Positions 44,520 through 53,100 of a stretch of 64,000 nucleotides of DNA are shown piece by piece. The DNA lies in NCBI GenBank assembly GCA_021734325.1, contig JAIPJF010000013.1:1-64000 (forward strand). The letters run 5' to 3'. The DNA comes from Fidelibacterota bacterium (GTDB lineage: Bacteria > Fidelibacterota > UBA8477 > JABMPR01). Position numbers and translations under genes: made by a program. The notes beneath the pieces are model-generated. The model made no database searches. It had not been told where the DNA came from and saw nothing but the letters and a program-made list of their open reading frames with translations. Each line of letters opens with the position of its first letter. The stretch's first letter is position 1.

Positions 44520-46445
44520 ATGCAAAAAAATGTGAAAAACAGAAATAAAAAACTGATAGAGGTTCTAGGGCCCGTTGAAAATCTCGAAAGTTATGTCCGC
44601 TCTGATTGGTGGCGACACCTGTTCAATGCTGCATATCTGCGAACAGATGGTGATGTTGTCGAAGATCAGGATATTACGAAAAATGAAGTCAACATTTTTC
44701 TTGAGGCTCTTGATCTGCCAACGGATGCAAACATTCTGGATCTTTGTTGTGGTCAGGGTCGGCATGCGCTTGAAATTGCCACAAGGGGGTATAAGGCGGT
44801 CGTGGGACTTGATCGTTCACACTATCTTATTGATCGGGCGAGAAAGGTCAATAGATCTCTCGGATTGAATGTCACCTTTAAGGAAGGTGATGCTCGCAGA
44901 CTGCCATTTTCAAATGATACTTTCACGGCAGTGATTATTGCCGGAAATAGTTTCGGATATTTTGATTCTGCAGAAGATGATATTGCCATCCTGAACGAAG
45001 TCATGCGTGTGCTTCAACCAGAGGGAAAGCTTCTGATCGATATCACAGATGGCACTTATATGCGCGATTCTTTTCAGCCAAGGAGCTGGGAGTGGATAGA
45101 CAAAAATTATTTTGTGTGTCGGGAACGATCGCTTTCAGCGGACAGTGAGCGCTTGATATCAAGGGAAGTTATCACCCATGTGACTAAGGGTGTGATTGCA
45201 GATCAGTTTTACGCTGAGAGACTCTATTCACAAGAAGACCTGCATAGATCCTTTTCCAAGGCAGGATTCATAAATATTACCAATTCTGCCAATGTCTTCG
45301 CAGATTCGAAACGTAACCAGGATCTGGGTATGATGGCCCAGCGGATGATCGTAACGGCCACAGCCAAGAAAGATTGGTCACCGGTCAAGAAACATTCTGC
45401 TGAAAAAACGGCTGTACTCGTTTTACTGGGAGATCCAAGTAAATCAGATATAGTTAAGCCTGGATTGAGTTTTGATACCGACGATCTTTTTACGATCAAC
45501 GAACTGAAAAAAGCGTTAGCTGATCTATCAGCATATAAATTTACTTTTCTGGACAGACATGACAGCCTTATCAAGGATCTGCAAAAATACCAGAATAAAT
45601 GTGATTTCGTTCTAAACCTGTGTGACGAGGGCTTTAATAATGAAGCAACCAAAGAACTGCACATTCCGGCAATTCTTGAGATGATGGGTTACCAGTACAC
45701 AGGGGGAAATCCACAGTGTCTTGCCTATTGTTATGATAAATCCCTCGTCCGTGGAATTGCCCAGGAAATGGACATTCCAGTACCCCAGGCATTTATTGTC
45801 AAACCGGAGGATTTTCATTTTGTTGAATTTCAGTTGGTCTTTCCAGTCATTGTAAAACCAAATTTTGGTGATTCAAGTATGGGTATTCATCAGGAGAATG
45901 TTTGTTATGATCTCCCTGCACTGGAGAGCGCCATTTTAAGGATCAGGCAGGATTTCGGTCAGAATAAACCCATCCTGGTTGAGGAATTTTTAAGGGGCAA
46001 GGATTTGAGTGTTGGTGTGATAGGAAATCCTACGACCTCTTATTCTATTCTACAAATTATTGAAGAGGATTATTCAGCTCTGCCGAATGATCTTCCCAGA
46101 ATTTGCGGTTATGAAGCCAAATGGGATCCAAAATCACCTTATTGGAACATTAAATCCATTCCAGCAGAGTTGGATGAAGATGTGGAACGTTTTTTAGGTG
46201 CCAGTTGTCTGAAATTGTTCAAGCGTTTGGATTGTCGAGACTATGCCCGCTTTGACTGGCGAGTAGATGATAATGGAACCCCACGTTTATTGGAAGTTAA
46301 CCCCAATCCTGGCTGGTGCTGGGACGGACATCTAGCCAAAATGGCTGGATACCAGAGCATTTCTTACAAGGGAATGCTAGAAGAGATACTGGAAGCATGC
46401 AAAACACGTTTGGTCCTAACTGACCGTGTAAGGGCTTCCTCCTAA
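44520..46445 (+). CDS. SAM methyltransferase fused to a D-Ala-D-Ala-ligase-like ATP-grasp enzyme
   Basis: A 641-residue two-domain enzyme. Residues about 60-200 are a class I methyltransferase: motif I ILDLCCGQGRHALEIA (D74 onward), EGDARRLPF and the motif-IV-like AVIIAGNSFGYF. Residues about 300-630 form an ATP-grasp fold like D-Ala-D-Ala ligase: FVLNLCDEGFN, YTGGNPQCLAYCYDKSLVR, FPVIVKPNFGDSSMGI (ATP lysine and glycine loop), LVEEFLRGKDLSVGVI, RFDWR and RLLEVNPNPGW (metal site). It presumably ligates an amino acid or peptide and methylates the same molecule. Substrate unknown. Standing alone after an intergenic gap, it may belong to a small-molecule or cell-wall modification. Confidence 0.85.
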   Translation: MQKNVKNRNKKLIEVLGPVENLESYVRSDWWRHLFNAAYLRTDGDVVEDQDITKNEVNIFLEALDLPTDANILDLCCGQGRHALEIATRGYKAVVGLDRSHYLIDRARKVNRSLGLNVTFKEGDARRLPFSNDTFTAVIIAGNSFGYFDSAEDDIAILNEVMRVLQPEGKLLIDITDGTYMRDSFQPRSWEWIDKNYFVCRERSLSADSERLISREVITHVTKGVIADQFYAERLYSQEDLHRSFSKAGFINITNSANVFADSKRNQDLGMMAQRMIVTATAKKDWSPVKKHSAEKTAVLVLLGDPSKSDIVKPGLSFDTDDLFTINELKKALADLSAYKFTFLDRHDSLIKDLQKYQNKCDFVLNLCDEGFNNEATKELHIPAILEMMGYQYTGGNPQCLAYCYDKSLVRGIAQEMDIPVPQAFIVKPEDFHFVEFQLVFPVIVKPNFGDSSMGIHQENVCYDLPALESAILRIRQDFGQNKPILVEEFLRGKDLSVGVIGNPTTSYSILQIIEEDYSALPNDLPRICGYEAKWDPKSPYWNIKSIPAELDEDVERFLGASCLKLFKRLDCRDYARFDWRVDDNGTPRLLEVNPNPGWCWDGHLAKMAGYQSISYKGMLEEILEACKTRLVLTDRVRASS

Positions 46446-46890: not shown

Positions 46891-49800
46891 ATGAGCATTG
46901 ATCTTAATAAAGTATTCGACCTGAACAGGAATGTCCTGATCGAAGCCTGCGCCGGTGCCGGCAAGACATGGTTGTTGTCAAAGCGTTATGCCGCGATCAT
47001 GGACGATTTTGCCCGCCAACATGCAGAAAATCCGCAGGTCCGACTGGATGCGTCAAATATTCTGGTCCTGACCTTCACTCGCAAGGCAGCGGCTGAAATG
47101 TCTGGACGCATATATGCTGACCTGAATCAACTCCTGAATGATCAGGTGCTGGAAAATGTACCAGCCAATTTTGGCCAGCATCTCCGGATATCAGATCAAA
47201 GCTACAAAATGCATTTGCGGTCGACCTATTCCAGAAATGCCATCTCAACCATTGATTCATTCTGTACTCAGATATTGAGAGACCAGGCTGAGAGATTAGA
47301 TGATATAGACCCGGAATTCAGGATCCAGGATGAAGCAGATACACAGCGGATGGAACTGGAGACCTGGGAGAACTTTCTGCGGGAACGTAGTCGAAACCAG
47401 GATAAAGATCTAAAAATTCTGCTGGATCACCTGTCGGAATTTCACCTGACTCAATACGTAAAGAAATTTTTATCCCACGCTCAATTGATGATGGATTGGC
47501 TTGTAGATCGAAAATCACACTCTCCAGGCGAACTGGTCGAACGGTTTAAACAAGAGCATCCACTACCAGTATCCCTCCAGAGAATCAATGACCTGTTGCT
47601 TGATCTGGTTGCCAGTCTTCCGGAAGCTGAAGCAATACTCAAACCTGATAGTTCACAATACACCAGATTGATTGATCTGAGAGCCTTTCTGAATGAATCA
47701 CCAGAAGATGTGTATCTCTATGAGCTGAACCTTATCCATCATGTCCGGCAAATCGGCTTAAAGAGCACTGGCACAGAGTATCATACAAAACCACAGGTCC
47801 ATGGAACTGTCTGGCCCAAAGAGTGGCTTCCCGAGATAAAAAGCCGACTTCAGACCTTCCTGGACGAATTACCTGAGCTGATACCCTTTGAAACACTGAT
47901 GAATGATATCCCTAGCATATGGGACCTGGAAGCGTGTACCGTTCACCATCACCTGGCAAAATTCTTTCTGGATTATTGGGATGTATTGAATCAAAGACTT
48001 AAAAGGGAAGGTGTACTCAGTTTTAACGAAGTGATTCTACAAACACATCAACTGCTTCAAAATCCAGCAGTAGCTGCTCATTACGGACAACGTTTCCAGC
48101 ACATTCTGATCGATGAATTTCAGGACACCAATGATATCCGTTGGGATATCGTCCGGCTGATTGCTCAAAATAAGCAGGCTGTGCTCCGTGATAGGGGGCT
48201 TTTTATTGTTGGGGATACCAAACAATCCATTTATCGATTTAATCAGGCTGATGTTCAGGTCATGAATCGGGTAAGGCGCATGATTGACTCAAGTGGCGGA
48301 TCAATATTGAATGCTGATGAAACCTTCCGGTCCTCAAGCAAATATGTTAAGACAGTGATCAATCCATTGAGTAGCGTTGCCTTTCCTTCTGCTGAGGAAA
48401 AAGATGGGCTGGAACTATTCGAAACTCATTTCAATCCGACCGCTGTCTCGAAGGACAGCCCCCTTACGGAAGCACAGCACCAACTGGCGCGATGTGAACT
48501 GAGTGCAGTACTGGAGGGTGGCGATTCCAGAGGGATGAAAGCAGATATTTACCATACGGCGGATCTTGCCCAGAATTGGCTCACATGGATGGACCAAAAT
48601 GCAGTTCCGGCCGGCGATGGTCCATCGGTGGGTATCCTCCTCAGGTCTTTCAGCCATATCCTGGACTACATTCGAATTTTTACGGCAAAGGGTCTGGATT
48701 TCGAGGTCTTATCCAGTAAAGGCCTGTTTCAACAACAAGAGAGTTATGATATTTACCATCTGCTCAGTGTCCTGATCAATCCGCTAGATGATCTGGCGCT
48801 TGTGGGGGTACTCCGGAGTCCTTTCTTTGTTCTGACCGATGCGGAGATCCAGGAGCTTAGAGAATCGGCAGAAGATAATACCAACCCTGGCTGGGTCTGG
48901 TTCAATCTCCTGAAGCTTAGAAACGGACTGGCTAAAGAAATACAAAGCTGGCAAACGGAGTCGGCCAGACAGCCGGTAGATCGTCTTATAACACACATAG
49001 TAAGCAATAATGAAAGACAGCTGGGCTGGATCTCAGAAACAGGTGGGAATCTCCGTTTAGCGAATCTGAATCGTCTCATTCATTTGATCCATCAATTGTC
49101 CCTGGATGGATTGGGTCTTAGGGAAATTCATGAGTACTTCAAATTTCAAATTCAACATGGTGATGCCCCGCAAGCTGAATTGCCGGGGACGACACGAATT
49201 CAGATTCTTTCCATTCATAAATCCAAAGGTCTGGAATTTCCTGTTGTCATATTACCCAATCTTCAAGCGCCAGAAAAAAATGAAACCAGCGGCATATTCC
49301 TCGGCCAGGGTGATGACGGCCACTGGGAGGCTGGAATAAGCCTGGACACCTTGAAAACCAGCCCCAAAACCTGGTTGTATGAGCGTATAAAGACACGCAC
49401 CAAAGCAGAGGAATTAGCTGAGGACAAGCGATTATTCTATGTTGCCATCTCAAGAGCCCGATATGGTGTGAGTTTTGTTGCCAGAATTAATCCAGCGACC
49501 AAGCCCGGCAGCAATACCTGGTGGAAACGATATCTTCAACCTGTTTTTGATCTGGAGCTTGATAAGGATGCCATTCAGAGTGATCCAAGATCTGTTCAGA
49601 CTGAATGGGTAAATCGCTCGACACCGGAAATGGTCTATAATTTTATTCTGGGATCTGATCTTTTACAAAATGAATCGGTCAGGCCACCTGAAGCAGATAT
49701 AAATATTCAGCCACTTCCTGAATTAGCCCCTGCCTATCTCTACGAGGAGATTTCCCCACACACCATCATGAAATGGATGGATCCAAAGAGTTATCCTCAA

Positions 49801-52800
49801 AGCGATGAGAAAAAAATTGGGGAAGATCACGGGGAAGATACCAGGCCCAGGAAATTTGGAACCTTGCTGCATCGGGTGATGGAAATGTCGTGGTTTGATC
49901 AGGAGCAGCATGCAGAGGACATTCGATTATTTCTGGAAGGTCTGGACATAAGCGATACAAGTGTTCAGCAGGTGTTCCTGTCAGATCTTTCAGATTGCCT
50001 GTCGATATATCGAGGAAGCGATCTGGCAGAAAAATTGGCTGGACTCACCGAATCCAACAAGCTTGCTGAGTTGCCCGTATTCGGGTATTTACAAAGCAAA
50101 ACTCGAGTCTATAAGGTTTCCGGGATCATAGATCTCCTGTACTATGATGGCAATGAATGGATTGTCCAGGATTACAAATCCGATAAAGAGCTTCCCCCTG
50201 ATCCTGAGGAAAATGACTACCCCTACTGGTACCAGATACAGACCTATTTATGGATGCTCAAACTACTCTACGGGATCGAAGCACGAGGTGAATTATATTT
50301 TAATCGTTTTGACCAGCTCATTTCAATCGACTACGACGAAGATCTTTACTTCTCTCGATTAGGCAAGACAGAGCAGGGACGTGGACTCAGACCTCTATTG
50401 CCTTCCAATACTGAGCTTGACCCCGGCATCCAAGGGATACTCAAACGGATAGATCCAGAATTAAGTGTCATCCTGATAGAACCTACAAAAAACAGTGGTG
50501 AGCGATTGGTACAGGCATTGGCTCAGAGTGGGTTCAACAAGCCGAGAATCCAGGTTATGACGCTGAATGAGCTACGCAATCTGACATTGCCGGAAGGCAG
50601 GAGTTTAACGCCATATCTCACCCGTTTGGCTGTTGCCGATTTATTGGGAAGAGATCTCAAATGGGGCGTCATTAATCGACTCGGTGCTGCTTTTTATAGA
50701 GCAAGCCAGGGTGAAGTGGTCATAGATTCAAAACAGGAACTGTATAAAAAGTTTATTCTATGGTGTGACCAGCATAAAATAATACTCCCTGGAAAATCAA
50801 GGGAGCTTTCAGGGATTTCGAGTGATACAAAGATCATTATTGACTCTATTCATTCGACCGCTCCAGCTGATTATGCTTTCCTGGCGAGGCTCGCAGAGCA
50901 AAATGAGACCATCTTTCTCAATCCGCTGAAAGAGGGGAGCGCCTCCGCAGGGTTTGCCATGTCTATTAGGGACTGGGCAGATCAGGATGAAATGCCCGAC
51001 AAGCAGCCCAGGCACAGCTATACGCCATGTTTTTCTGTTTATGAAGAAGTTGTCCTGAGTGCTCATCATATTCGCAATCTTCTCGCAAAAGGTGTGGTAC
51101 CAGCTAATATTCTGGTGGCTGTTTCTTCAATGGAGCGCTATATCCCATCCATTAAACGCGTCTTTAGTGACCTCGGAATATCCGTGCGTTTAAGCAAGCG
51201 CGAGCCAGTCATGGAACGCCCCGTCACCCATTTGGCCTTTGCCCTGATCCAGGGTCGTCTGAGGCGTCATCTGACCTGGGATATGGCGATGTCAGTTTGG
51301 CTTCATCCCCTCGTTCTTCCGCCAGGCACTGAGGGGAATGATCGATTGCGTTTGGACATTGAAGCCCGCAAACTGGGTATCACACTTTTTGATGAGTCCC
51401 TGATAGATAACCTACGGTCGTCCAGCCTGAAACAAGCTGCGAAAGAATTATTGGCTTTTATTTCCGAAGTATGGCGAAGCAAGCAAAAAGGCAGCCTGCT
51501 TGAAGAAATTGAATGGCTCAGCCAGATCCTTGGCAGTTTTCAATTTACACATCGATTGGAGCCCGGCAGTGTCGCCTCCAAAGCGTATACTTCCTTAAAG
51601 AATGCCCTGGATGGTATCAGGAATGATTGGGATAGATATCTCAAGCAGAAGGGAAGTCTGAGCGATTTAAATCGAGAGTTGCGAGAACGTCTGAAGGGGG
51701 TGGAGGTTGCTTCGGCACAGCAGGGGTTTGGAGTAGATGTGATCTCCATACTTGATACTCTGAATCTGAAGAATAAGCATTTGTTGGTTATGGGATTGAC
51801 AGAAGGGCAGTTTCCCCTGGCGCCGGACAGTAATCCCTACCTGGTGCAATCTGAACTAAATCCCTGGTTCCTCAATCTGTATTTATTCAAACAATGGTTA
51901 AGACGGCCAGCAGGGAGCCTGCATCTGACCGCACCCCTCCGCAATGTGGATGGTGCCAGTTTAGAGCTAAGTACCTTCTGCCAGTACTTGATCAAAAACG
52001 ATTATCCAAAACTACCCATCGTCAGTCGGGACCAGTATCTGCATTATCTGGCCGGCAAACTCATTCCGGAAGCGAATTCAAAATATCAGGTTCGGCATAA
52101 TGCAGTCCTGACTGATGCCGGAAAGGGTGATTGGTACGGAAAACTCGGGCCCCATGATCAACGTTCCTTCGATCAGATCTCAGCTTCCGCCTTTGATGAA
52201 TTGATCAAATGTCCACAGCGCTATTGGTACAGTCGGATGCTCAGGCTTGAACCGGCAGAAACGGACATTACGGAGCGAAATGAGATAGAGATCGGGAACC
52301 TGGTTCATCAGGTATTGGAAAAATTTGGCAAGGCAGGTAGCTTTCTTCTGGTTGGCAGCGATCTGAATGCCGCCCTTGTGCAACTGGAAACCATTGCGCT
52401 ACAACATCTCAAAGATAAAGATGTGAAACCTGAGCTGGACCTTCTGGATAGCAAATGGAGTGAATTGTATTTCAAAAACTTCTCTGATCCTGATCAAAAT
52501 TTATTAGCGGCCATGCTTCAAATAGAAGCCGATGCACTTTCCAGTTATGGCGATATCGGTCTTCATGAACAGGCCTTTGGATATAGTGATGATCTCGAAT
52601 CCTGGCCATCCATCAAAATCTCTGATGAATCCATAACATTATCCTTGGTGGGCAAAATTGACCGTGTCCTAGTTAGCGGGGAGCATGTTTGGGCTTCGGA
52701 TTACAAAACAGGTAAGGTTGATATTAAGGATAGTCAGGATTTCTGGACAAGCCAGATGCTTTTTTATTTTCTGGTGTTAAAATCCCGTTTCCCTGACAAA

Positions 52801-53100
52801 AAGGTTGTTCTTACCTATGATCAAGTCAGGGCATTCAAGGAAAATGAAGTTGGGCTGAAAGGGTACCTTGGTGATGTTGAGTCGGAGAGCCCCATCATGT
52901 CCACGGTGAGATCAAAAAATCAATTGCTGGCGATTGGTGACCAGGGTGATTGGTCTATTAAACGAATCCAGGCAGAGACCCTTGCCTGTGCCCAACATCT
53001 CGCAGACAATGAGTTTCCCCTGACCAGTCGCGATGAAGATAAAGCCTGCGCCTATTGTCATTTTGAAAGGATATGCCGTAAGACGGCCCTGCCTCGATAG
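46891..53100 (+). CDS. Single-chain AddA-AddB fusion: helicase-nuclease for double-strand break repair
   Basis: A 2069-residue protein joining two normally separate subunits that process DNA ends for RecA. The AddA half (1 to about 1180) has Walker A ACAGAGKTW (19-27), DEFQDTND from 408, GDTKQSIYRFN, IHKSKGLEFPVV, and a nuclease with LLHRVM, GIIDLLY and D1094-Y-K1096. The AddB half (about 1185-2069) starts LSVILIEPTKNSGERLVQAL, has a second nuclease (VHQVLE, GKIDRVL, D1937-Y-K1939) and four Cys of the iron-sulfur clasp: C1774 (KCPQRYWY), and C2053-x2-C2056-x5-C2062. Both nucleases look intact. No stop interrupts the frame. The start at ATG 46891 is supported by the first motif. Confidence 0.9.
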   Translation: MSIDLNKVFDLNRNVLIEACAGAGKTWLLSKRYAAIMDDFARQHAENPQVRLDASNILVLTFTRKAAAEMSGRIYADLNQLLNDQVLENVPANFGQHLRISDQSYKMHLRSTYSRNAISTIDSFCTQILRDQAERLDDIDPEFRIQDEADTQRMELETWENFLRERSRNQDKDLKILLDHLSEFHLTQYVKKFLSHAQLMMDWLVDRKSHSPGELVERFKQEHPLPVSLQRINDLLLDLVASLPEAEAILKPDSSQYTRLIDLRAFLNESPEDVYLYELNLIHHVRQIGLKSTGTEYHTKPQVHGTVWPKEWLPEIKSRLQTFLDELPELIPFETLMNDIPSIWDLEACTVHHHLAKFFLDYWDVLNQRLKREGVLSFNEVILQTHQLLQNPAVAAHYGQRFQHILIDEFQDTNDIRWDIVRLIAQNKQAVLRDRGLFIVGDTKQSIYRFNQADVQVMNRVRRMIDSSGGSILNADETFRSSSKYVKTVINPLSSVAFPSAEEKDGLELFETHFNPTAVSKDSPLTEAQHQLARCELSAVLEGGDSRGMKADIYHTADLAQNWLTWMDQNAVPAGDGPSVGILLRSFSHILDYIRIFTAKGLDFEVLSSKGLFQQQESYDIYHLLSVLINPLDDLALVGVLRSPFFVLTDAEIQELRESAEDNTNPGWVWFNLLKLRNGLAKEIQSWQTESARQPVDRLITHIVSNNERQLGWISETGGNLRLANLNRLIHLIHQLSLDGLGLREIHEYFKFQIQHGDAPQAELPGTTRIQILSIHKSKGLEFPVVILPNLQAPEKNETSGIFLGQGDDGHWEAGISLDTLKTSPKTWLYERIKTRTKAEELAEDKRLFYVAISRARYGVSFVARINPATKPGSNTWWKRYLQPVFDLELDKDAIQSDPRSVQTEWVNRSTPEMVYNFILGSDLLQNESVRPPEADINIQPLPELAPAYLYEEISPHTIMKWMDPKSYPQSDEKKIGEDHGEDTRPRKFGTLLHRVMEMSWFDQEQHAEDIRLFLEGLDISDTSVQQVFLSDLSDCLSIYRGSDLAEKLAGLTESNKLAELPVFGYLQSKTRVYKVSGIIDLLYYDGNEWIVQDYKSDKELPPDPEENDYPYWYQIQTYLWMLKLLYGIEARGELYFNRFDQLISIDYDEDLYFSRLGKTEQGRGLRPLLPSNTELDPGIQGILKRIDPELSVILIEPTKNSGERLVQALAQSGFNKPRIQVMTLNELRNLTLPEGRSLTPYLTRLAVADLLGRDLKWGVINRLGAAFYRASQGEVVIDSKQELYKKFILWCDQHKIILPGKSRELSGISSDTKIIIDSIHSTAPADYAFLARLAEQNETIFLNPLKEGSASAGFAMSIRDWADQDEMPDKQPRHSYTPCFSVYEEVVLSAHHIRNLLAKGVVPANILVAVSSMERYIPSIKRVFSDLGISVRLSKREPVMERPVTHLAFALIQGRLRRHLTWDMAMSVWLHPLVLPPGTEGNDRLRLDIEARKLGITLFDESLIDNLRSSSLKQAAKELLAFISEVWRSKQKGSLLEEIEWLSQILGSFQFTHRLEPGSVASKAYTSLKNALDGIRNDWDRYLKQKGSLSDLNRELRERLKGVEVASAQQGFGVDVISILDTLNLKNKHLLVMGLTEGQFPLAPDSNPYLVQSELNPWFLNLYLFKQWLRRPAGSLHLTAPLRNVDGASLELSTFCQYLIKNDYPKLPIVSRDQYLHYLAGKLIPEANSKYQVRHNAVLTDAGKGDWYGKLGPHDQRSFDQISASAFDELIKCPQRYWYSRMLRLEPAETDITERNEIEIGNLVHQVLEKFGKAGSFLLVGSDLNAALVQLETIALQHLKDKDVKPELDLLDSKWSELYFKNFSDPDQNLLAAMLQIEADALSSYGDIGLHEQAFGYSDDLESWPSIKISDESITLSLVGKIDRVLVSGEHVWASDYKTGKVDIKDSQDFWTSQMLFYFLVLKSRFPDKKVVLTYDQVRAFKENEVGLKGYLGDVESESPIMSTVRSKNQLLAIGDQGDWSIKRIQAETLACAQHLADNEFPLTSRDEDKACAYCHFERICRKTALPR

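Follow-up and report, generated by a model that had tools for sequence, protein, structure and literature searches.

The window analysed here, a 64,000-nucleotide stretch of contig 22 of a 2.93-Mb genome bin that is ~84% complete, contains a gene in which AddA and AddB are encoded as one chain. The frame runs from an ATG to a stop codon over 2069 amino acids and has no internal stops (Table 1). Based on Pfam, the protein contains a UvrD helicase domain (residues 8–463), a UvrD_C domain (579–858) and two PD-(D/E)XK nucleases, the matches to which map to positions 49,828–50,304 and 52,174–53,079. Residues 1–1157 were assigned to AddA and residues ~1166–2069 to AddB using family profiles, profile–profile alignment and predicted folds. 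The original prediction, made from the nucleotide sequence, was of AddA and AddB joined in a single 2069-residue chain, and it is confirmed by the single frame, the family profiles, the folds and 31 homologues. The gene upstream (44,520–46,445) is itself composite: one 641-aa frame combines a class I methyltransferase (residues 72–169) with an ATP-grasp domain of the D-Ala-D-Ala-ligase type (432–625), an unusual pairing.

Table 1 Features of the fused gene and their positions in the window
Feature	Position	Strand	Basis or remark
Fused AddA-AddB gene	46891..53100	+	2069 codons + stop; one open frame; 31 full-length homologues
AddA SF1A helicase motor, residues ~1-900	46891..49590	+	PF00580, PF13361; TIGR02785; fold 4cei_A
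AddA Walker A, ACAGAGKT, residues 19-26	46945..46968	+	G22, G24, K25, T26 invariant in alignment A1
AddA Walker B / motif II DEFQDT, residues 408-413	48112..48129	+	Invariant in alignment A1
AddA PD-(D/E)XK nuclease, residues 985-1157	49843..50361	+	PF12705/Cas4 matches
AddA nuclease residues H994, E1060, D1081, D1094, K1096, Q1115, Y1119	within 49843..50361	+	Present in all 31 fused proteins
Linker and first AddB elements, residues 1158-1177	50362..50421	+	Model secondary structure; purifying selection
AddB helicase-like (Chi-scanner) domain, residues 1178-1755	50422..52155	+	AddB profile, fold matches
I1320 at the B. subtilis AddB F210 position (Chi pocket)	50848..50850	+	Joint alignment; same column in hhalign
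Shortened latch segment, residues 1641-1666, 26 residues	51811..51888	+	L1656 in place of latch Arg R629
AddB PD-(D/E)XK nuclease, residues 1762-2065	52174..53085	+	PF12705, E = 8.6e-27
AddB nuclease residues H1806, E1893, D1924, D1937, K1939, Q1955, Y1959	within 52174..53085	+	Intact in the 31 fused proteins apart from one E-to-P
C1774, first Fe-S ligand	52210..52212	+	Cys in 27/31 fused proteins
C2053, C2056, C2062, other Fe-S ligands, CxxCx5C	53047..53076	+	Cys in 27/31 fused proteins

The best profile scores of the first half are to AddA models (TIGR02785 addA, E = 1.6e-73). This half has a complete set of SF1A motifs (Walker A, DEFQDT, GDxKQSIY, HKxKGLEFP and VAxxRA), and most of their positions are invariant in alignment A1. 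The second half scores weakly against AddB-type models. When its profile was compared with solved structures, B. subtilis AddB ranked first (3u44_B, E = 3.7e-22), followed by AdnA and RecC, and profile–profile alignment with separate AddB proteins (hhalign) returned 100% with E = 1.8e-64 at ~16% identity. The predicted structure of residues 1–1190 is closest to AddA (4cei_A, E = 1.8e-47) and that of residues 875–2069 matches AddB (4cei_B, E = 8.3e-27); the two models have a mean pLDDT of 83.6 and 82.9 and a pTM of 0.65, and describe each half rather than the packing of one against the other. No helicase family was matched in the AddB half using Pfam, no ATPase motifs were seen there, and comparison with the N-termini of separate AddB proteins revealed no recognisable AddB Walker A in residues 1158–1177. 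As judged from its sequence, the AddB half is an inactive helicase-like AddB fold with a complete nuclease and the cysteines of a predicted Fe-S cluster.

Within the model, the AddA nuclease extends to residue ~1157 and the first AddB-like structure appears at ~1166–1178, so that the join comprises ~10–20 residues. A junction near residue 1185 had been proposed; the junction exists but lies slightly earlier. Among the fused proteins there is no conserved internal Met at the junction, so it is unlikely that AddB is started separately from an internal site, and the 1:1 stoichiometry that had been anticipated follows from the single frame.

Most of the genomes are metagenome bins, in which a missed stop, a frameshift or a chimeric assembly could join two genes. 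We retrieved 31 full-length homologues, each in one frame, from 30 genomes in seven families of the phylum Neomarinimicrobiota (Fidelibacterota), including one on a single 2.79-Mb contig (genome G036). Copies from the same genus retain the full frame at 50–65% identity and those from related families at identities down to ~23%. A protein that is 59% identical is encoded on JAERTG010000095.1, from 'Candidatus Neomarinimicrobiota bacterium BH26', and assigns the bin to this phylum, which the NCBI taxonomy lists as Fidelibacterota. In five close pairs dN/dS is 0.10–0.19 at the junction (residues 1140–1215) and 0.06–0.14 over the whole gene, indicating purifying selection across the join. Separate genes in related strains, together with an assembly error at the junction, had been named as the finding that would speak against a fusion. 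Instead, whole same-genus copies are always in one frame, and the partial ones are pieces cut by contig ends. Thus, we consider an artefact excluded. One long frame (L040) proved to be an unrelated overlap and was dropped from the fused set. Two full-length fused copies that are 80% identical occur in one bin (G006, contigs C20 and C37; L013 and L163); they may reflect a duplication or the binning together of two strains.

The AddA tree groups the fused and re-split proteins (the latter are described below) in a single clade (SH-aLRT 99), and the AddB tree does the same for the fused forms (100/99). From this we infer that the fusion arose once, in Neomarinimicrobiota and in reversed gene order, although finer placement in these trees is unsure given the long branches at such divergence. 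AddA-first order had been noted as unlike the usual addB-addA arrangement, and the comparison bears this out. Four other families of the phylum (f3, f9, f5 and f11) encode AddA (1121–1211 aa) and AddB (916–1069 aa) of the same protein families as two genes, addB then addA, mostly with other genes between them, and neither tree places these proteins within the fused clade. The same order of separate genes is found in many other phyla in our sample. Given its reversed order, the fusion did not originate from an addB-addA operon merely by losing a stop codon. At two loci from two different families (L154, 10,376–11,191; L158, 4208–5716), addB and addA are separated by an oppositely oriented gene for a membrane protein, similar at the two loci.

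Outside the phylum, no fusion was present among the matches in 40 Calditrichota-, 296 Bacteroidota- and 301 Chloroflexota-centred genomes, nor among those obtained with the AddB half as query in 247 Acidobacteriota-centred genomes. The 80 loci of a genome-wide scan included no fusion except for one Neomarinimicrobiota record, a plasmid search returned no AddA-AddB fusion, and the viral matches listed are confined to the helicase part, with no fusion. Given the strict thresholds, and with part of the known phyla covered, these searches may have overlooked a divergent fusion of independent origin. Our search of the open-access literature turned up no account of a naturally fused AddA-AddB, and public databases may list fused proteins under generic names. 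Within the phylum, 179 out of 245 genomes have no AddA-like match at E ≤ 1e-30; many of these may use another resection system.

In one genus (g22, family f6) the fusion is re-split within the AddA nuclease into two unlinked genes (L149, L150, L151, L152 and L174). The first gene (1038 and 1044 aa) carries the AddA motor and reaches as far as the opening helix of the nuclease (FHKVME). The second (~1005 aa if complete) starts just before 'YPELPVVGW' and encodes the remaining AddA nuclease followed by the whole of AddB. The genes are on different contigs, and in one genome (G068) several kb separate them from the ends of their contigs (42.7 and 25.1 kb). Their neighbours are the same in both genomes that show them; in a third (G069) the second gene is truncated, and its start region and upstream neighbour match. 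Purifying selection acts on both genes (dN/dS 0.15 and 0.20), and the re-split form is placed inside the fused clade in the AddB tree. We considered a split intein and rejected it, as the homology runs to within a few residues of the end of the first gene, too little space for one. The AddA-nuclease residues that remain covalently joined to AddB are most readily explained as left over from the fusion. The fusion was thus undone at a different point, and one nuclease, if active, would be built from two chains. Because the chain has been re-split elsewhere, the joining of AddA to AddB is not essential.

Nuclease motifs had been noted in both halves, and all tracked catalytic residues are present in the protein from the window. 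The seven tracked positions of the AddA nuclease are kept in all 31 fused proteins, and those of the AddB nuclease are intact apart from one E-to-P replacement. In same-genus pairs, the AddB parts have dN/dS values as low as those of the motor (0.05–0.08). The four-Cys clasp noted in the AddB half is present as C1774, C2053, C2056 and C2062, and its cysteines are kept in 27 of the 31 fused proteins. The other four (G024, G219, G220 and G216; L144, L146, L147 and L148) lack all four cysteines and retain the AddB nuclease residues. These four form one clade in the AddB tree, which suggests that the Fe-S cysteines were lost once.

In B. subtilis AddAB, a loop-helix-loop of AddB (the ionic latch, with its E129-R629 pair) shuts the exit channel until Chi binds, and F210 of AddB is a residue of the Chi site (PMC4824097). 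In our joint alignment, the segment from a conserved 'FP' to the next helix is 26 residues long without exception in the 31 fused proteins, and equally in the re-split form, compared with 34–44 residues in 39 separate AddB proteins. The R629 column contains R or K in 34/39 separate AddB proteins but in only 2/31 fused ones, and the F210 column contains F in 29/39 and 0/31, respectively. An independent profile–profile alignment places R629 and F210 in the same columns. The E129 column is uncertain, as the B. subtilis fragment is misaligned there and the AddB half is ~16% identical to separate AddB, and the latch claim therefore rests on segment length, R629 and F210. The E129-R629 latch of AddB domain 2A was not recovered in the fused forms, pointing to a Chi gate that is absent or rebuilt, and another structure could stand in for the latch. 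The suggestion that a single-chain form may differ in Chi recognition thus gains indirect support, from a short latch segment and a lost Chi-pocket residue in all fused forms.

Our preferred reading, which we consider probable, is that the fused protein is a functional single-chain AddAB end-resection enzyme in which Chi gating is altered or absent. By analogy with the AddAB family, the AddA part would load on a broken DNA end and translocate 3′-5′, the two nucleases would cut the two strands, and the AddB part would guide the 3′ strand to yield a 3′ tail for RecA. The short join between the AddA C-terminus and the AddB N-terminus would fix 1:1 assembly. We are less sure of the gate: with the latch segment shortened and the charged pair gone, the exit channel may be ungated or differently gated. 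In that case Chi would exert weak or no control over degradation, or the control would respond to a different signal.

The fusion might instead be neutral, yielding an ordinary, fully Chi-regulated AddAB in one chain with another local structure in place of the latch. The retention of the catalytic residues, the short linker, the good overall fold match to AddB and the moved break point of the re-split genus, which entailed no gene loss, are all compatible with this. However, it leaves unaccounted for the uniform cut of the latch to 26 residues and the loss of the latch Arg and Chi-pocket Phe in the fused forms, whereas separate AddB proteins of the same phylum (families f3, f9, f5 and f11) retain the segment, the Arg (or Lys) and the Phe. 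We regard a neutral fusion as rather unlikely. Less plausible still is a vestigial or structural AddB half, which would make the protein a RecB-like helicase-nuclease with a spare nuclease. The loss of Fe-S cysteines in one clade, the lack of ATPase motifs in the helicase-like domain and a length ~150 residues below that of separate AddB fit such a decay, but the near-universal retention of the AddB nuclease residues and a dN/dS no higher than that of the motor do not, and we judge it improbable. An anti-phage defence helicase-nuclease, suggested by weak GajB/UvrD profile matches limited to helicase motifs, is very improbable given the far better scores from AddA/RecB profiles, the wide retention of the gene across the genus, the failure to find a second UvrD-family resection enzyme in the ~84% complete bin and the absence of defence genes among the four neighbours examined.

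In the ~84% complete bin, the UvrD-family helicases found are the fused protein and one of UvrD/PcrA size (765 aa). With only this one other member, the fused, single-chain AddAB is probably the main end-resection enzyme of the genome. A fuller history of the single-chain AddAB is possible, and we put it forward tentatively: one reversed-order fusion and loss of the Chi gate would have given a latch-less, Chi-independent enzyme; one branch would have lost the Fe-S cluster, and one genus would have re-split the chain in the AddA nuclease, with an active site drawn from two unlinked genes.

Among known systems, B. subtilis AddAB (RexAB; PDB 3u44 / 4cej) is most similar, with the same profile and fold for each half, two nucleases, one motor and the Fe-S cysteines. 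The fused form differs in being one polypeptide with A before B, and its AddB part has no recognisable Walker A, a shorter latch segment and a replacement at F210. AddAB has two separate subunits, whereas the fused protein is one conserved frame; we file this natural single-chain form as a variant of AddAB. The mycobacterial AdnAB (PDB 6ppj, 7sjr) is a heterodimer with a nuclease in each subunit, and its sequence and fold matches are weaker. AdnA and AdnB each bear helicase motor domains. AdnAB is thus two chains with motor motifs in both, while the fused protein is one chain and has no ATPase motifs in its AddB half. RecB and RecC of E. coli RecBCD match the folds of the two halves; RecBCD has three chains, one nuclease and a second motor, RecD.

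AddAB and RecBCD decide between repair and destruction of broken DNA, a choice for which the Chi latch has been proposed as the switch. A conserved natural single-chain enzyme without the latch segment would be a direct test of the Chi-latch model, and the one-gene AddAB should lend itself to single-molecule and structural studies. The re-split genus would likewise offer a natural test of how far an active site tolerates construction from two chains.
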